A DNA stretch of 64,000 nt from an uncultured Pseudomonadota bacterium. GTDB lineage: Bacteria; Myxococcota_A; UBA796; GCA-2862545. The translations under genes and the position numbers were made by a program. Each line of letters begins with the position of its first letter. Position 1 is the first letter of the stretch. The stretch lies in assembly GCA_903861005.1 (NCBI GenBank), contig CAIOSP010000130.1, positions 62,001 through 126,000 on the forward strand, written 5' to 3'. Below are positions 12,798 to 21,158 of the stretch, piece after piece. The notes below the pieces were generated by a model. It searched no databases, was not told the origin of the DNA, and was given only the letters and a program-made list of their open reading frames with translations.

Positions 12798-13964
12798 ATG
12801 TTCGGTCGTGGACTCGTCACAGGTGGGCTCGCGTGGCTGGTCGCCGGCTGCGTGGACGTGCCGCTCGTGATCCACCCGGGCGCCGACGGCTCCGCGATGA
12901 TCGACGTCGGCACGCTGCGCGATGGCACCCTGTCGACCGGCACCATGCTGGTCGGCCCGCTGCGCATGACGAGCGGCCTGGCCGAGGACCACCTCACCGC
13001 GTTCGCGCAGGACCCCGTGACGGGCTTGGGCGTCGAGCTGCTCATGGGCGAGGCGCTCGATGGTTGGCCCCCGCCGATCGGCACGCCGTTCAAGGTGCGC
13101 GGCTACTACGCGGGCCCTTCTGAGGCGCCGGTGATCTGGATCTCGTCGATGAAGGACCTGACGGTGCTCGGCGAGCCCGAGCCGCTCACGATCCTCGACG
13201 GGCTCGACCTGCCTCCTGCGCTGTCGCTGGCGCACTGGGAGGGCGTAACGGTCGAGACCATGCCCGATCCGGCGGGGCGCGCGGAGCTGAGCGTGCGGCG
13301 GCTGGCGGACGGACGCTTCGGACGGTTTGTGCCGGAGCTGGGCAACTACGGGTCCATCACCGGCATCGTGCTGGAGGACGGCAGCGTGGCCCCGCGCGCG
13401 GCGGACGACTGGGTCGGCTCGCGGCGCGAGTTCGCGGTGCCCGGCGCCACCCTCGACGAGGTCCTCGGCGGCATGGTCGAGCCGGGGTCGTACGTGCACA
13501 TCCGCGCGCGTCAGATCACCCCCTGGTCGGTGGGCGGTCGCTACACGGTCATCCAGGACGTGCTCGGCCAAGGGCTGTGGGTCGACGCGGAGGGCTGGTC
13601 GCCGTGGGAAGCGCAGGTCGGCCGCGCCGCCGAGTTCACGGGGCAGGTGGAGGTGAGCGCCGGCACCTGGCGGCTGCGCGCGTGGACCGCGCCGGTCTGG
13701 GAGGCCGAGGACGTCGAGCCGCCGCACGTCAGCGTCGCAGGCAACCACGGCGAGTGGGTGGCGCTGGTGGTGTCAGGGATCCAGGCGGCCGACGGTCGCG
13801 GAGATCGGCGCGTCGACGGCGCGGTCGTGCTCGACGACCGCTTCCAGACCTTGGACGCCATCGAGGATGGCTGGACCGTGCAGGGCGTCGTCGATCTGAC
13901 GCTGGGCGACCCTCGGCTGGCGGTGGTCGAGGCCACGCCGCCTCCGCCGCCGCCGCCGCCGTAG
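12798..13964 (+). CDS. Hypothetical lipoprotein
   Basis: A 388-residue predicted lipoprotein. The ATG at 12798 gives a signal peptide with lipobox LVAGC (about Cys17). The mature part is rich in Gly, Val and acidic residues with beta-strand periodicity, and it ends in an uninterrupted run of eight prolines before the stop. No family was recognised and no catalytic motif was seen. It lacks the Asp-Thr tether found in the surface-type lipoproteins of this window. It is divergent from recQ across 128 bp and convergent with a small Cys-rich lipoprotein gene whose stop lies 4 bp away. Confidence 0.68.
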   Translation: MFGRGLVTGGLAWLVAGCVDVPLVIHPGADGSAMIDVGTLRDGTLSTGTMLVGPLRMTSGLAEDHLTAFAQDPVTGLGVELLMGEALDGWPPPIGTPFKVRGYYAGPSEAPVIWISSMKDLTVLGEPEPLTILDGLDLPPALSLAHWEGVTVETMPDPAGRAELSVRRLADGRFGRFVPELGNYGSITGIVLEDGSVAPRAADDWVGSRREFAVPGATLDEVLGGMVEPGSYVHIRARQITPWSVGGRYTVIQDVLGQGLWVDAEGWSPWEAQVGRAAEFTGQVEVSAGTWRLRAWTAPVWEAEDVEPPHVSVAGNHGEWVALVVSGIQAADGRGDRRVDGAVVLDDRFQTLDAIEDGWTVQGVVDLTLGDPRLAVVEATPPPPPPPP

Positions 13965-13968
13965 CGGA

Positions 13969-14214
13969 TCAGATCGCGCAGGTCTCGCCGTTCGCGTCGT
14001 CCTCGGCCTGGAGGTCGGCCAGATCGGCGGCGCACTCGTCGGCGACGGCCTGGCTCGGGTTCTCGGCCAGCGCCTCGATCTCCGCGCAGTCAAAGCCGGT
14101 GTCCTCGGCGTGGCACGAGCAGACGTAGTCCGCGTAGCGGGTGCAGGGGGTCTCGGTCTCACAGGCCAATAGGCCAGTCAGCAGCGCCGCGAGCGACATG
14201 ATCCGGACGAACAT
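13969..14214 (-). CDS. Small Cys-rich lipoprotein
   Basis: An 81-residue lipoprotein: signal peptide with lipobox GLLAC, then a short mature domain of about 60 residues with six more Cys (CTRYADYVCSC, FDC, DEC, ETC), enough for three disulfides, and many acidic residues. GAGGAG 8 bp upstream fixes the ATG at 14214. Small disulfide-rich lipoproteins of this kind are common in myxobacteria-like genomes and mostly lack a known function. Confidence 0.7.
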   Translation of the reverse strand: MFVRIMSLAALLTGLLACETETPCTRYADYVCSCHAEDTGFDCAEIEALAENPSQAVADECAADLADLQAEDDANGETCAI

Positions 14215-14308
14215 GGGAGGGCTCCTCAAGGGGTTGGCGCTTGGACGGTCAAGGCCAGCCGTTCTTCAGCAGGATAGCCGTCCCGGGAAGACTCAGCCCG
14301 GGTGAACG

Positions 14309-15223
14309 ATGGCCGAAGCGGCGCTCCAGGTGTTCGGACTGACGCGGCGCTACGGCGCGCGCGTGGTGGTGGACGATCTCCACCTGCAGGTGGAGGAGGG
14401 CGACGTGTACGGCTTCCTCGGGCCGAACGGCGCGGGAAAGACCACCGCCATGCGCTGCATGCTCGGGCTGATCCGCCGCGACGCAGGCAACGTGTCGTTC
14501 TTCGGTGAGTCGGATCCGGTGGCTGCGCGGCGGCACATCGGCGCCATCATCGAGACGCCGTCCTTCCACCCGTGGATGAGCGGCCGCGCCAACCTCGCGC
14601 AGGCCACGGCCTACGCGGGCCTGACGCCCAAGGAGTCCGGCGTCGAGATCGACCGCGTGCTCGAGCGCGTCGGCCTGTCCGAGCGCGCCAAGGACCGAGC
14701 GGGCACCTACTCGCTCGGCATGAAGCAGCGGCTGGGCATCGCGCGCGCGCTGATCGGTCGTCCGCGGCTGATGATGCTCGATGAGCCGACGAACGGGCTC
14801 GATCCGCGCGGCATGGCCGAGATGCGCGAGCTCATCCGCTCGCTCTCCCTGCACGACCGCATCACCATCTTCATCAGCTCGCACCTGCTCGCTGAGGTGC
14901 AGGCGATGTGCAATCGCATCGGCATCATCCAGCACGGCAAGCTGCGCGCTGAGGGCCGGGTGGAAGAGCTGCTCGGGCTGGGGATCGGCGAGTCCACGCT
15001 GGAGATTGGCAGCCCGGACGTCGACGCGCTGCGCGCCGCGCTGGCCGCCATCGTCGGGGTGGACGTGCTCGGACAGGGTCGCTCGGGTCGCGTGATCGTG
15101 CGGCCGAACGAGGTGAAGCCTGAGGAGCTCAACGCGCGCCTGAACGCCGCGGGCGTGGCCGTCTCCGCCATCGTGCCCACCGAGCGCAACCTGGAAGACG
15201 TGTTCCTGGAGGTGACGCGATGA
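14309..15223 (+). CDS. ABC transporter ATP-binding protein
   Basis: A 304-residue ATPase of the ABC-2/DrrA-CcmA type exporter group. Walker A is GPNGAGKTT (about residues 37-45), the signature is YSLGMKQR, Walker B is LMMLDEPTNGLDPRG and the H-loop is SSHLL. The last 80 residues are the extra domain typical of this subfamily (contains PNEVKPEELNARL). It powers the permease encoded next, whose ATG overlaps its stop by 4 bp. Substrate unknown; close family members export lipids, peptides or antibiotics. Confidence 0.92.
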   Translation: MAEAALQVFGLTRRYGARVVVDDLHLQVEEGDVYGFLGPNGAGKTTAMRCMLGLIRRDAGNVSFFGESDPVAARRHIGAIIETPSFHPWMSGRANLAQATAYAGLTPKESGVEIDRVLERVGLSERAKDRAGTYSLGMKQRLGIARALIGRPRLMMLDEPTNGLDPRGMAEMRELIRSLSLHDRITIFISSHLLAEVQAMCNRIGIIQHGKLRAEGRVEELLGLGIGESTLEIGSPDVDALRAALAAIVGVDVLGQGRSGRVIVRPNEVKPEELNARLNAAGVAVSAIVPTERNLEDVFLEVTR

Positions 15224-16122
15224 GCGCCACACCCTCGCTCGCGGGCATCGTCCGCGCTGAGACCGTGAAGCTGTCGCTGCGCACCAGCGTTCGCCTCACG
15301 CTCGCCGTCCTCATCCTGCTGTCGATCGGCTCGCCGATCCTGCTGTTCCTGGTCAAGTCGATGGTCGTCGGCGCCACGGTCACCACCACCACCACGGCGG
15401 GCGTCGTCGCCACGGTCGCGCCCGCGCAGGGCCCGGCCGCGGTCAACGTCGCGTCGGCGCTGGAGTCGGTGCGCTTCTTCCATGACCTGTTCTTGTTCCG
15501 CACGCTGCTGATCGCGGTCGTGGCGGTGTCATTCGCCGGCGAGTTCGTCGGGCGCACCCTGCGTGAGGACGTGCTCCGCCCCGTGTCGCGCACCCAGGTG
15601 CTGCTCGCCAAGTGGCTGGCCATCCAGGTGTTCGTGGCGGCGGGCGCGCTGGTGCCGGTGCTGATCGGCGGCCTGCTCGGCCTGGCGCTGCTCGGCACGG
15701 GCGGCGACGTGACCGCGGCGCTGTCCAGCTGGGGCTTGACCTGGGCGGGTGACGCAGGCTTCGCGACCATGGTGATGGCGATCTCGTTGGCGACGCGCAG
15801 CGTGCCCGGCACCATCGGCGGCACCGTGCTCTACTGGGTGTTCGACAAGATGCTGCGCCTGCTGCTGTTGGCGCTCGAGGCCGCGCGCGACCAGGGCCTG
15901 CTCGAGAAGCTCTTCGCCGCGTACAACCTCAAGCCGCTCACGCCGATCAGCGACTTCTTCATCGCGCTGCGGCCCTTCCTGCCGTCGTCCGCGTTTGACT
16001 TGGCGCCCTCGGTCTTCTCCAGCGCGTCCGCGGGCTGGCAGGGCTTCCTGGCGCTCGCGCTCTACACGGCGGGCAGCGCCGCGGTGGCGTGGCGCGTGTT
16101 CAACCGCATCGACATCGACTGA
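15220..16122 (+). CDS. ABC-2 type permease
   Basis: A 300-residue membrane protein with about six hydrophobic segments, two near the N-terminus separated by a Thr/Val-rich external loop (VTTTTTAG). The arrangement matches ABC-2 permeases, and the conserved segment EFVGRTLREDVLRPVSR resembles the coupling region G-x-x-R-x-x-L in that family. Cotranscribed and translationally coupled with the ATPase (ATGA overlap); together they form a homodimeric exporter of unknown cargo. Confidence 0.87.
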   Translation: MSATPSLAGIVRAETVKLSLRTSVRLTLAVLILLSIGSPILLFLVKSMVVGATVTTTTTAGVVATVAPAQGPAAVNVASALESVRFFHDLFLFRTLLIAVVAVSFAGEFVGRTLREDVLRPVSRTQVLLAKWLAIQVFVAAGALVPVLIGGLLGLALLGTGGDVTAALSSWGLTWAGDAGFATMVMAISLATRSVPGTIGGTVLYWVFDKMLRLLLLALEAARDQGLLEKLFAAYNLKPLTPISDFFIALRPFLPSSAFDLAPSVFSSASAGWQGFLALALYTAGSAAVAWRVFNRIDID

Positions 16123-16133
16123 TGGACGCCGCC

Positions 16134-16156
16134 GGGCTGGCCGTCAGAGCCAGCCC
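16134..16156. terminator. GC hairpin at the convergent end of the ABC permease gene
   Basis: Perfect 8-bp stem GGGCTGGC / GCCAGCCC with a 7-base loop. It starts 12 bp after the permease stop and covers the last codons and stop of the gene on the other strand, so it could end transcription from both sides. No T tract follows. Confidence 0.45.
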
Positions 16157-16590
16157 AGGCGCACCACGACCACGGCCGCGAAGCCGAGCAACGACGCGGG
16201 CCAGCTCAGCCAGAGCGCCTGCCAGGACGCGGTCGGGCGCTCGTCGCGCCACCACAGCCACAGCGTCCAGCCGACGAGTGGCGTCAGGAGCAGGTTGGCG
16301 GCGAGCAGCATGCGGCGCTGACGCGTGTCGAGCCCTGCGTCGGACGCGAAGTGGCGACCCAGCGCGCGTCGGGCGCGGTCCAGCTGACGCAGCGACGGAC
16401 GGATCACCTCGCCGCGCTTGATCCGGTCGGCCACCGCGGGCAGCGCGGCGGAGGCCAGGAACTGGCTGGAGACGAGCCAGGCGACCAGCAGGCCGTCGCC
16501 GTCGGGTCGGTGACCACACGCGCCGCACACGCGGTCAAAGGCGGGCTTCTCCGCGCCGCAGCGGGCGCAGACGGCGAGGCCGCCGCTCAT
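16144..16590 (-). CDS. Zinc-ribbon membrane protein
   Basis: A 148-residue protein that begins with a double-CxxC zinc ribbon (CARCGAEKPAFDRVCGACG, residues 8-26), then has an amphipathic region and two hydrophobic helices near the C-terminus (LLAANLLLTPLVGWTLWLWW and LLGFAAVVVVRL). The ATG at 16590 overlaps the stop of the upstream gene by 4 bp, which supports this start over a longer one. It probably works with the upstream gene product; no function recognised. Confidence 0.68.
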   Translation of the reverse strand: MSGGLAVCARCGAEKPAFDRVCGACGHRPDGDGLLVAWLVSSQFLASAALPAVADRIKRGEVIRPSLRQLDRARRALGRHFASDAGLDTRQRRMLLAANLLLTPLVGWTLWLWWRDERPTASWQALWLSWPASLLGFAAVVVVRLGWL

Positions 16591-17528
16591 TCGTTCCCCA
16601 CGAACACGACCTGCTCGATCGGTGCGCTGGACGCGTCGACCAGCGCGCGCCACCACTCGACCGCGCCGCTGGGGCCTGCGTGATCGACCACCAGCACGTC
16701 GGGCCGCTCGACGTAGGCCGCGTACGCCCAGCGGGCGGCGAGCAGCGCGTGCGCGCCCACGGCGCGAGCCGACAAGAGCTTGGGACCAAAGCCAAGCCGC
16801 GGGCGTCCTTCACGTAGGACGAGGGACGCGCCTTCGAGGTTGAAGGGCTCCTTGGCAAGCGAGGCGAGCGCCTGCTCGGCGTGGCCGCGTCGGGCGCGGT
16901 CGGGGGCCAGCAGCGCGGCCTGCCAGGCCAGCGCCAGGGCGACCTCGTCCATCGTGGTGTCGACCCGGTGCACCCGGCGCGACATGTCGACGAGCAGGGC
17001 GGGGACCCACGCGGGGCGGTCGGTGCGCGTGGTGGTGAAGCGCTCGTCTCCCACCTGGAGCGAGAGCACCGACACCGACGCGTGCGTGCCGGACCGGTTG
17101 AACAGCCAGCCGACCCGAACTCGGATCTGCCCGCCCTGACCGAGGGCTGTGGTCAGCCGTGCCTCGCGCGCGGCCAAGTCGCGCAGCGTGCGGAAGAGCA
17201 GGGGATCGGGCGCGAAGGCCGCCTCGACGGTGAGGTGACGGTGCGTGCTGTCGGCGATGAGGTCGGCGACGCCGGCGGGGTCGAGCTGCTCGACCTGCTC
17301 GACCGCGCCGTCGGAGATCAGCGTCGCCGACTCAGGCGTGCCCAGGCCCAGCCGTCGAACCTCGCCCAGGGTGCGCTCGGGATCGAGGGCCGCCCGCAGC
17401 AAGGACAGGCCGTCAGCGAGCGCGCTGGACTCAGGCCCCGCGGCCTGCGCGTGCACGGCCTCGAACCCTTCACGTGCCAGGGTGGAGGCGCCGGCGAGGC
17501 CTTCGAGCGTGATCGCGGAGAGTCGCAT
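16587..17528 (-). CDS. Hypothetical protein, possibly a degenerate RecF/SMC-type ATPase
   Basis: A 313-residue protein of unrecognised family. The start (MRLSAITLEGLAG) recalls the first strand of RecF/SMC-like ATPases, and the last 40 residues contain PDVLVVDHAGPSGAVEWWRA followed by a QVVFVGNE strand, laid out like a Walker B and the strand after it. But there is no Walker A loop and no signature motif. A binding or structural protein derived from such an ATPase is one reading; similarity by chance is another. Cotranscribed with the zinc-ribbon membrane protein (ATGA overlap). Confidence 0.5.
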   Translation of the reverse strand: MRLSAITLEGLAGASTLAREGFEAVHAQAAGPESSALADGLSLLRAALDPERTLGEVRRLGLGTPESATLISDGAVEQVEQLDPAGVADLIADSTHRHLTVEAAFAPDPLLFRTLRDLAAREARLTTALGQGGQIRVRVGWLFNRSGTHASVSVLSLQVGDERFTTTRTDRPAWVPALLVDMSRRVHRVDTTMDEVALALAWQAALLAPDRARRGHAEQALASLAKEPFNLEGASLVLREGRPRLGFGPKLLSARAVGAHALLAARWAYAAYVERPDVLVVDHAGPSGAVEWWRALVDASSAPIEQVVFVGNE

Positions 17529-17625
17529 GGTGCCCTTGGGCTATCTCCGCGCGGGTGTGACCGCGAGCCGACACAGCGGACGATCGGGCGGTGTGCTAGG
17601 AACCCTCGTTGCTGTGGGAGTCCTG

Positions 17626-18423
17626 ATGGGTCCGATGCTGGTCGCGCTGCTTGTCTCGGCTCACGCCGCCCCGGTCGGCTTCGCGGGCGTGGAGTGGCGC
17701 CCCCTGTCTCGGCAGGACCTGGTGTGGGTCGACGAAAACCGCACGAGCGGCACCGCAGTCGGGGAGTTCGACGGCACGGTCAAGCCGGTCCTGTCGGCGT
17801 TCGGAGGCGCTTGGTTCAACCGCTACGTCGGCCTGTCTGCGGGGATCGGCCTCGCGCAGTCGGTGTCGGACTCGGCGACCGAGGACACCAAGCAGCAGCA
17901 CATCTGGAGCGTGGTCCGTCCGTCGCTGGATCTCCGCCTGGGCTGGATGGTGCCCCGCGACCGCTTCCCGATCCCCTGGTTCCTGATCGGCGTCTACGGC
18001 GACATCCCGACGGTGGTGGACCGATCGCTTCAGTACACGGCGGACGAACAGGCGGCGGCGGACTCCGCGGCCGTGAGCGACAAGTACCGGCTCGGCGGCG
18101 TGGGCGGCCGGGTTGGCGCGGGCGTCGACTACCGGATCCTCCCATACTTGGCGATCGGAGGTCAGTTTGCCGTGGGCCTGCACCACGCCACCTACACCGG
18201 CGGCGACACGCGCTTCACCACCCTGTGGGTGTCGACCGAGGCGTCGATCCTCATGACCTTTGAGTGGCCCGGCAAGGGCGGGTTCAAGCGCCACAAGGGC
18301 GTGACACCGGACGCCCCGATCCCCGAGGTCGGGGTGGTGGTCCCGGCGAGCACCGCGCAGCCCGAGGCCCAGGCGGCGGTCCCGGCGCCCGTTGAGGCGC
18401 CAGCGGCCATTCCCGAGCCCTGA
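17626..18423 (+). CDS. Outer-membrane beta-barrel-like exported protein
   Basis: A 265-residue exported protein. The ATG at 17626 has GGGAG 5 bp upstream and starts a signal peptide ending near VSAHA. The mature part has the alternating pattern and aromatic girdle of an eight-stranded-type outer membrane barrel (VKPVLSAFGGAWFNRYVGLSAG, LGGVGGRVGAGVDYRI), then a disordered Ala/Pro/Glu tail of about 40 residues instead of a C-terminal aromatic. The tail makes standard BAM recognition uncertain. Confidence 0.6.
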   Translation: MGPMLVALLVSAHAAPVGFAGVEWRPLSRQDLVWVDENRTSGTAVGEFDGTVKPVLSAFGGAWFNRYVGLSAGIGLAQSVSDSATEDTKQQHIWSVVRPSLDLRLGWMVPRDRFPIPWFLIGVYGDIPTVVDRSLQYTADEQAAADSAAVSDKYRLGGVGGRVGAGVDYRILPYLAIGGQFAVGLHHATYTGGDTRFTTLWVSTEASILMTFEWPGKGGFKRHKGVTPDAPIPEVGVVVPASTAQPEAQAAVPAPVEAPAAIPEP

Positions 18424-18433
18424 GAGGGGGCTC
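18415..18433. terminator. Hairpin between convergent barrel-protein and RegB-like genes
   Basis: 6-bp stem GAGCCC / GGGCTC with a 7-base loop, spanning the stop codon of the plus-strand gene and ending next to the stop of the minus-strand gene. No T tract. Confidence 0.35.
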
Positions 18434-19126
18434 CTAGAGGTGGGACGTCTCTAGGATGGGGTGCGGCACGTCTTCGGTCCCTGGCTCGCCCAGGCGCGCG
18501 CGGGCGTCGCGAAGCTGGGTCTCCCGGCGTCGCAGGCTCTCCGACATGCCGACGACGAAGCCGCCGATCGAGCCCAGGGTCGCCACGAACGCGACCGCCT
18601 GGCCCACGCTCGCGAGCGCACGGCCGGACAGGAGTGGGTGCTGGTCGAGGTGAAGCGGCATTGGCCCAAGGTGGATCAGTCCGAAGCACGCGACCGCGGC
18701 GACGAACAAGGCGGCGGCGCCTTCGCGACCCAGCACCATCGCGCCCAGCGTCACGTGGACTGCGTAGAGCATGACGAAGGGGTTGGCGGGACCGCCGGTC
18801 AGCAGCAGCATCACGGTGAGCGCAGCCAAGTCGAACCACAGGTGGTTGAACAGCTTGGCCCGGTCGACGGGGCTGCCCGCCTCCAGGCGGTCGGCGGCCG
18901 CCAGGTTGGCCACCGCGAGGGCGCCGATGATCCCGATCATGACCGGCACCGTCAGCGCCGGCCGGTCCAGGACATTGAGGGTCAAGCTGATGACCAGCGC
19001 CTGCGCGGACACGGCGAGCCATCGCAGCCGGATCATCCAGGCCATCCACATGGTGGGCTCGTCGCGGAAAACAACTCCAGTCTCCGGGTACTTCCAGCTT
19101 CGATCGGACGGTTTCGGCCACAGCAT
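18434..19126 (-). CDS. RegB/PrrB-like quinone-sensing membrane domain without kinase
   Basis: A 230-residue protein with about six hydrophobic segments that matches only the membrane sensor half of RegB/PrrB redox histidine kinases. It has the start MIRLRWLAVSAQALVISLTL, the HLWFDLAALTVMLLLTGG helix and, at residues 111-117, GGPANPF, an exact fit to the GGxxNPF quinone-binding motif known for RegB. RegB then continues into a DHp/ATPase kinase; here the protein ends after a short coiled segment (ESLRRRETQLRDARARL) and 25 polar residues, with no phospho-His box and no ATPase. GGAGG upstream supports the start. It lies head-to-head with the ATP synthase genes across a palindrome. It may sense the quinone pool and act through a partner, or be a truncated relic. 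Confidence 0.75.
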   Translation of the reverse strand: MLWPKPSDRSWKYPETGVVFRDEPTMWMAWMIRLRWLAVSAQALVISLTLNVLDRPALTVPVMIGIIGALAVANLAAADRLEAGSPVDRAKLFNHLWFDLAALTVMLLLTGGPANPFVMLYAVHVTLGAMVLGREGAAALFVAAVACFGLIHLGPMPLHLDQHPLLSGRALASVGQAVAFVATLGSIGGFVVGMSESLRRRETQLRDARARLGEPGTEDVPHPILETSHL

Positions 19127-19180
19127 GCGACCTCCACGCGGGCGGTGAAAGGGGGGCCGCCCTGACCTCCTGTATCACCA

Positions 19181-19199
19181 GTGCAACGGACGGTTGCAC
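19181..19199. promoter_or_regulatory. Perfect palindrome GTGCAAC-N5-GTTGCAC, candidate operator
   Basis: A 7-bp perfect inverted repeat with a 5-bp spacer lies in the 199-bp divergent region between the RegB-like gene and the ATP synthase operon, 55 bp from the former and 127 bp from the latter. Its position and symmetry suit a dimeric repressor or activator serving both directions. It could also fold as a hairpin in the leader of the atp mRNA. Confidence 0.45.
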
Positions 19200-19325
19200 C
19201 AGAATGTCACGGCCCTCTGCCCGGGACGGACGGATCAACCGTCGGCTGCAACGGATCGTGCCTTGCGCTGCCTACCCCCTCCCGATAGACGCGCGGTCCC
19301 TTGGGCCCTGGTGGGGTTGGCTGCG

Positions 19326-19763
19326 ATGCAGATCATTCCGAACGCGTACTTCGCCCTTTGGATGACGCTTCCGTTCCTGGTGACGCTCTTTGCGTTGAAC
19401 TTCCTGCTCGTGCGCCCGATGCGCGAGTACCTGGAAGGCCGGGACGCGGCGATCCACGGAGCTCGTCATGACGCTGAGCACATCGCTCACGCGGCAGATG
19501 CCAAGCTGGCCGATCTGAACGCCCAGCTTGCCCGCGCCCGCGAGCAGGCTGCGGCCGTTCGTGCGGCGGCCCGGCAGGCTGCCATCCACAAAGAGTCCGA
19601 GGTCGTCGACGCCGCGCGCAAGCAGGCTGAGTCTGCCCTTGAGACCGCCCTTGAGGGCATCTCTTCCGAGGCGGCCTCCGCCCGGTCCTCGCTCCGCGAC
19701 GCCGCTGTGGCGCTCTCCAACGACATCGCCGGCCAGGTTCTCGGCCGCCGCATCGACGCCTGA
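19326..19763 (+). CDS. ATP synthase F0 subunit b'
   Basis: A 145-residue b-type stator subunit: one N-terminal membrane helix (ALWMTLPFLVTLFALNFLL, about residues 9-27) with the conserved RPMREYLEGRD at the membrane exit, then a continuous Ala/Glu/Arg-rich helix that forms the peripheral stalk coiled coil. The next gene encodes a second, longer b subunit, so the stalk is a b/b' heterodimer, as in photosynthetic and many deltaproteobacterial enzymes. The ATG at 19326 is the first that starts at the membrane helix; a longer open frame upstream has no family similarity. It is the first gene of the atp operon here. Confidence 0.88.
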   Translation: MQIIPNAYFALWMTLPFLVTLFALNFLLVRPMREYLEGRDAAIHGARHDAEHIAHAADAKLADLNAQLARAREQAAAVRAAARQAAIHKESEVVDAARKQAESALETALEGISSEAASARSSLRDAAVALSNDIAGQVLGRRIDA

Positions 19764-19774
19764 GGAGTGACAGC

Positions 19775-20602
19775 ATGACGCTCAAGTTCCGCGCCGCCGC
19801 CATTGGCGGGCTGGTCCTCTTCGGTCTCTCCGCGGCTGCGCTCGCGCAGGAGCCCGGCCACGTTCCTCCGGGTGGCATCCCGGCCACGCCGGCGGGTGAG
19901 CCCGTGGCGGCCCCGGCTGGCGAGCCCGTGGCGGCCCCCGTGGGCGAGCCTGGCGCCGCTCCCCGGGGCGAGCACGCCGCCGAGGCGGGCGCTGAGGGCG
20001 AGCACGCCGCAGAGGGTGGCGAGCACGGCGGCGAGCACGAGAGCCCGCTGCACTACACCGGCGACGAAGACCACGATGGCACGGCCAACTGGCTGGACTC
20101 GGACTCCGAGCACTACGTCCTGACCTCGCTGGGCTTCCACTTCCTGAACTTTGTCATCTACGGTGGCCTGGCGCTGTTCTTCGCCGGCCCCATCATCCGT
20201 GACGGCCTGCGCGCTCGCGCCGCGGGCATCAAGTCCGGCATCCTTGAAGCCGCCAAGCTGCGTGATGAAGCGGTCGCCCGCGACGAGTCGGTCTCCAAGC
20301 GCCTGGGCGCCCTGTCGGCCGAGATCGCCGAGATGGCCGCGCGCGCCAAGACCGAGGCCGTCGCCGAAGAGGCCCGCATCATCGAGCGCGCGCAGGACGC
20401 CGCCCGCCGCGTCGGTGAGACCGCGCAGCGCCAGATCGCCGACGAAGGCGCTCGCGCCCGTCGCGCCATCCGCGATGAGGCCGTCGTCCTGGCCGTCCAG
20501 CTCGCCGAGGGCATCCTGGCGGGTCAGGTCCAGTCGGGTGACCAGAAGCGCCTCGCGGACGAGTTCCTGAACACGCTGAAGTCGGAGGGACGCCATGTCT
20601 GA
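19775..20602 (+). CDS. atpF: ATP synthase F0 subunit b with exported N-terminal extension
   Basis: A 275-residue b subunit, about 100 longer than usual. It starts with what looks like a cleavable signal peptide (MTLKFRAAAIGGLVLFGLSA, ending at ALAQ), then about 90 residues of Gly/Glu/Pro/Ala repeats and a Glu/His-rich stretch (GEHAAEGGEHGGEHES), then the true b-subunit membrane helix (FHFLNFVIYGGLALFFAGPI, about residues 121-140) and the stalk helix. The extension should lie in the periplasm. The 3' end overlaps atpH by 8 bp. Confidence 0.86.
   Translation: MTLKFRAAAIGGLVLFGLSAAALAQEPGHVPPGGIPATPAGEPVAAPAGEPVAAPVGEPGAAPRGEHAAEAGAEGEHAAEGGEHGGEHESPLHYTGDEDHDGTANWLDSDSEHYVLTSLGFHFLNFVIYGGLALFFAGPIIRDGLRARAAGIKSGILEAAKLRDEAVARDESVSKRLGALSAEIAEMAARAKTEAVAEEARIIERAQDAARRVGETAQRQIADEGARARRAIRDEAVVLAVQLAEGILAGQVQSGDQKRLADEFLNTLKSEGRHV
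19895..19966 (+). repeat. Three 24-bp units encoding GEPVAAPx in atpF
   Basis: In-frame tandem repeat in the periplasmic extension of the b subunit: GEPVAAPA, GEPVAAPV, GEPGAAPR. The first two units are nearly identical in DNA, the third has diverged. Confidence 0.8.
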
Positions 20603-21158
20603 GACCGCCGCGGCCCAGCGCTACGCGCGCGCCATCGTGGAACTCGCCGTGGAGGCGGGCGTCGATGAGGCCGTCCATCGTGATCTCTCGTCCGTCGTGC
20701 AGGCTTTCGCCGCCGGCGGCGGTGAGCTTGGCGCGGCGCTCAGCAGCCCCGTCTTCTCCGCCGATGAGCGCAAGGCCGTCATCGGCGCCGTGCTCGCCGC
20801 GGAGGGTGGCCACGCGCTCACCCGCAACTTCCTCTCCCTCCTGGCCGATCGCAGCCGCCTGGGCCTGCTGCCGGAGATCCTCGACATCGTGACGACGCTC
20901 CTGGATGCGCGCGCTGGTCGCGTGCGCGTCGACGTTCGTACGGTCGAAGCCCTGTCGCCGGAACTCGCCGCGGAGATCAAAGCCGCGTTCGAGAAGTCCA
21001 CTGGCAAGACTGTCCTGTTGGAAACCCGCCTCGACCCGACGCTGCTCGGTGGCTTGGTCGCCCGTTTGGGTGGCCGCGTCTACGACGCCAGCCTCAAGAA
21101 GCGTCTCGAGGACATCAAGCATCGTCTCATCCACGCCCAGGCCAACGCCGAGGCTTGA
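20595..21158 (+). CDS. atpH: ATP synthase F1 subunit delta
   Basis: A 187-residue delta (OSCP) subunit that joins the peripheral stalk to the top of F1. The helical N-terminal domain begins ETAAAQRYARAIVELAVEAG, and the family signature is in the C-terminal part (ETRLDPTLLGGLVARLGGRV). Length is normal. Overlaps the end of atpF by 8 bp and precedes atpA by 52 bp. Confidence 0.93.
   Translation: MSETAAAQRYARAIVELAVEAGVDEAVHRDLSSVVQAFAAGGGELGAALSSPVFSADERKAVIGAVLAAEGGHALTRNFLSLLADRSRLGLLPEILDIVTTLLDARAGRVRVDVRTVEALSPELAAEIKAAFEKSTGKTVLLETRLDPTLLGGLVARLGGRVYDASLKKRLEDIKHRLIHAQANAEA

Follow-up and report, generated by a model that had tools for sequence, protein, structure and literature searches.

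A stand-alone RegB/PrrB-type membrane domain, encoded without a kinase beside an ATP synthase operon

Gene content of the locus

The window (the whole 64,000-nucleotide stretch of DNA analysed here) contains an open reading frame for 230 amino acids, referred to below as the short gene, which diverges from an ATP synthase (atp) operon across a 199-bp intergenic region (Table 1). It is a genuine gene, as judged from its ATG start, a GGAGG 4 nt upstream of the ATG and a GC content per codon position (0.71/0.47/0.89) resembling that of its neighbours (0.79/0.51/0.87 for atpF). The antisense frame at the same place has a codon-position GC unlike that of the neighbouring genes. Downstream lies a convergent gene for an outer-membrane beta-barrel protein (OMP). 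The first-pass annotation had this gene beginning right after the short gene; it does adjoin the short gene, but it ends beside that gene's stop codon rather than starting there. No kinase sequence was found past the stop, and the end of the conserved OMP gene is only 10 bp away, leaving no room for a hidden kinase. A frameshift is thus ruled out, as is a kinase half in another frame, which the first-pass annotation had also dismissed. No Rfam match was obtained in 17000-21000 of the window, and a promoter and terminator scan returned no result, including no consensus promoter upstream of atpF'.

Table 1. Coordinates of features at the locus, in window positions.
Feature	Position	Strand	Evidence
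OMP: convergent outer-membrane beta-barrel gene, a conserved neighbour on the upstream side of atpF' across most of the family	17626..18423	+	PF13505, E 7.6e-6, just under Pfam cut-off; locus comparison
Short gene: stand-alone RegB/PrrB-type six-helix membrane domain, GGPANPF at residues 111-117, without H-box/HATPase	18434..19126	-	Sequence, profile search, alignment, low-confidence structure model, codon-position GC
GGAGG, likely Shine-Dalgarno sequence of the short gene	19131..19135	-	Read from sequence
Inverted repeat GTGCAAC-N5-GTTGCAC, 7-bp arms, between the divergent genes	19181..19199		Genome search, random-piece test, relatives' upstream regions
Promoter-like TTGCGC-N15-GATAGA upstream of atpF'	19263..19289	+	By eye, similar patterns in relatives; under the scan's consensus cut-off
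atpF' (ATP synthase b/b' subunit), opening the divergent atp operon	19326..19763	+	PF00430 and profile search
atpF (ATP synthase b subunit)	19775..20602	+	Profile searches

A RegB-type membrane half

The short protein matched the NCBIfam model for ActS/PrrB/RegB kinases (NF033792) with an E-value of 5.5e-24, covering only profile positions 10-184 of 423 and scoring 84.8 bits against a cut-off of 350 bits. Alignment located an exact GGxxNPF quinone motif. Both the RegB membrane region and this motif had been recognised in the first-pass annotation, and both were confirmed. A single-sequence structure model of low confidence (mean pLDDT 57.6) gave six helices. Truncation is clean, falling where the dimerisation region would begin: the H-box histidine and dimerisation domain lie beyond the end of the sequence, the region holding the redox-active cysteine of the RegB kinase half is missing, and Pfam and NCBIfam profile searches detected no HATPase domain. 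The protein is 32-42% identical to 11 aligned relatives, and a PDB sequence search returned no relative. No RegA regulator adjoins the gene, whose neighbours are the OMP gene and atpF'. GGxxNPF has been described as the ubiquinone-binding heptapeptide of RegB (PMC8191878, PMC10525716), a kinase inhibited about six-fold by oxidised ubiquinone (PMC5359404). From its sequence, the short protein may likewise bind quinone.

The same genome encodes two full-length RegB-type kinases on contigs C54 and C47, 39% and 34% identical, respectively, to the membrane domain of the short protein. The C54 kinase matches NF033792 over residues 5-403 (E 6.1e-55) and is followed by an ActR/PrrA/RegA-type regulator (NF033791, E 1.6e-43); downstream of the C47 kinase lies a RegA-like open reading frame with receiver and helix-turn-helix regions, read by eye. 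Searching the genome with the C54 kinase half returned close matches only to C54 and C47, the next best having 30% identity (E 7e-14). This search therefore gave no obvious third, membrane-less RegB kinase as a separate output partner for the short protein.

Distribution of the short gene

We compared the locus with the 14 atp loci of the same family, outside the genus, that have readable sequence upstream of atpF'. Family-wide, the gene order over window positions 14309-20602 is ABC transporter, zinc-ribbon protein, a 313-aa protein of no known family, OMP barrel, atpF' and atpF. The OMP gene faces atpF' across the intergenic region in 11 of the 14 loci, two of these with an extra small open reading frame between. 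None of the 14 has a relative of the short gene at atp. In the sister species (G001) it occupies the same position and encodes a 100% identical protein. The first-pass annotation had asked whether close genomes encode the full kinase or the short form here: the short form recurs here only in the sister species, and the 14 loci outside the genus lack the gene. On this comparison the short gene is an insertion, in one genus only, into an otherwise conserved arrangement of OMP gene and atpF'. Its absence from the 14 loci rules it out as a conserved atp partner, and it does not show the conserved linkage to atp genes expected of accessory genes of the atpI/atpZ type.

A second stand-alone RegB membrane domain was found in another genus (genome G002; L070:9221-9910(-)). 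It is 229 aa long, carries GGTDNPF and lies near porin-like, thioesterase-like and FabH-like open reading frames (named by eye) rather than atp. A full-length RegBA pair lies on another contig of that genome. The remaining matches within the family, contig-end fragments aside, were full-length kinases, mostly with AGAAHELNTP. No further true stand-alone form appeared in 71 genomes of the class or, among about 150 matches listed, in 379 genomes of the phylum, so that the form is known from two genera in this set. Three other short frames were not counted: those of G125 and G281 are cut by a contig start and a contig end, respectively, and in that of G198 the kinase part continues out of frame. 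In this RegB-type gene of G198 (L097:7294-8423(-)) the membrane and ATPase parts lie in different frames, through either a real break or an assembly error.

Descent and constraint

The stand-alone forms of the window and G002 pair weakly in two trees (81/16 and 72/71), while the full-length kinases of the two genomes pair firmly (99/98); together these hint at a duplication that may be older than the genus. Both stand-alone forms sit on long branches (1.32 for the stand-alone branch, against a median of about 0.7 in full-length kinases). Placement of the short protein as sister of its own C54 kinase was not rejected (p-AU 0.079).

Where 95% or more of the family's full-length kinases agree on a residue, the short protein matches them in 83% of columns; at poorly conserved columns the figure is 23%. 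Before the cut, 25 of 28 conserved columns are kept and the three changes are conservative. The G002 form keeps 62% of conserved columns. This pattern argues that the membrane domain is constrained, though part of the constraint may predate the truncation. The two known copies of the window's gene, its own and that of the sister species, are almost identical, with one synonymous change. They lie in a block (17434-19963) showing three differences between the window and the sister species (L053) where about 95 would be expected from the surrounding 18 kb. Survival of the frame in both species thus says little on selection after truncation. Recent recombination between the species is a possible source of this near-identity. 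Around the block the pair differs by about 4%, and another 1-kb stretch, at 13944-14959, is free of mismatches.

Upstream region of the ATP synthase operon

The perfect palindrome reported between the divergent genes does exist; its length is unremarkable, an inverted repeat of such length being present in 17% of 199-bp pieces drawn at random from the window. It is the sole exact copy in the genome. Of the 14 relatives outside the genus, 8 carry the half-site (GTTGCA/TGCAAC), a word named from the window before counting, in the 160 bp ahead of atpF', compared with 0.55 expected. In these eight loci (L054-L058, L060-L062) it lies 77-119 bp upstream of atpF', and in relatives it often stands about 10 bp ahead of a promoter-like TTGxxx...GATAxx pattern. 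Some G+C-rich six-letter words are equally frequent there; among words of mixed composition only GTTGCA and words overlapping it are. Because relatives lacking the short gene have GTTGCA, sequence comparison assigns the half-site to the atp promoter region rather than to the short gene. GTTGCA is possibly a conserved regulatory element of the family's ATP synthase operons and is proposed as a candidate.

Interpretation

A RegB-type sensor kinase gene would have been duplicated and one copy would have lost its kinase half; the truncated copy, a six-helix GGxxNPF protein, would survive as a stand-alone membrane protein, inserted in one genus between the OMP gene and the atp operon and tuning RegB-RegA. 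We tentatively prefer this reading, giving it somewhat less than an even chance. The protein would most likely pair with the membrane domain of full-length RegB or compete for its quinone or partner signal, so that RegB-RegA signalling would be damped or tuned and atp affected at most indirectly, via RegA. Since the short protein has no output domain, modulation of full-length RegB is the most economical function, and we give mixed pairing or signal competition about the same chance. Full-length RegB kinases without a membrane-less one in the window's genome, and the stand-alone form in G002, whose genome also has a RegBA pair, count in favour, as do the NF033792 match confined to the membrane part and the well-kept conserved columns. 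Histidine kinase dimerisation rests largely on the dimerisation domain, and its absence from the short protein counts against pairing with RegB. The near-identity of the only two known copies, the weak tree pairing of the stand-alone forms, their long branches and the p-AU value also count against the preferred explanation. Mixed kinase subunits have been proposed behind dominant-negative ArcB variants (PMC3364231), a point in favour of modulation.

The main rival sees in the gene a remnant, either recent or in slow decay: a functionless truncated duplicate left open by chance or youth. Its great rarity, its faster evolution than the full-length kinases and the slight divergence of the two species, in which an intact frame says little, all fit such a remnant. 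Set against this are the intact frame, Shine-Dalgarno sequence and native codon bias, the GGxxNPF motif and most of the conserved membrane positions, all retained in a gene whose product has diverged by about 60% from every full-length relative, as well as the clean end between two genes; we regard a remnant as unlikely, if a serious contender. The first-pass annotation had named a rare and decaying short form as its own refutation: rarity was found, decay was not borne out. Retention of RegB's ubiquinone-binding motif, in a gene divergent from atp, would also suit a stand-alone quinone-binding protein with an output other than RegB, such as a soluble partner or the assembly of a respiratory or ATP synthase complex. 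With no conserved gene partner, different neighbours around the G002 form and no orphan RegB-like kinase in the genome, this is distinctly unlikely.

A dedicated quinone-pool sensor controlling ATP synthase transcription, as first annotated, is the least probable reading, and we give it very little weight. GGPANPF and the divergent layout over a shared intergenic region are what it would draw on. The protein carries no DNA-binding or output domain, though, the gene is missing at the 14 relatives' atp loci, many of them with GTTGCA, and the G002 form lies elsewhere than atp. Support for tying the gene to the control of ATP synthase is poor, and direct atp control by the short protein appears unlikely from the loci compared. 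More speculatively, the preferred reading could be extended to natural heterodimeric braking or tuning of RegB-RegA by a kinase-less paralogue of the quinone-sensing kinase, of independent or ancestral origin in the two genera; one genus would have relocated it to the control region of atp, where brake and energy production would share one regulated intergenic region. This is improbable.

If functional, the short gene would be a case of cells employing the quinone-sensing half of RegB by itself, and its protein would offer a tool to ask whether the RegB membrane domain signals or pairs alone. For annotation, the locus warns that genes matching RegB models may be without a kinase.

Comparison with known systems

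The closest known proteins are the ActS/PrrB/RegB/RoxS redox sensor kinases (NF033792), with which the short protein shares the six-helix N-terminal membrane domain and the RLRW and GGxxNPF motifs; full-length members from its own taxonomic family are about 40% identical to it. It differs in stopping short of the redox cysteine, the H-box and the ATPase domain. Its membrane region also bears a weak likeness to the PilS-like 6TM domain (PF25323; E 0.0022), which scores 18 bits and so falls under the Pfam cut-off of 27. MgrB, SafA and MzrA are small kinase-less membrane proteins that modulate sensor kinases through the membrane. These single-helix proteins are unrelated in sequence, and the analogy is one of mechanism only; unlike them, the candidate modulator described here is paralogous to the sensor of the kinase itself.
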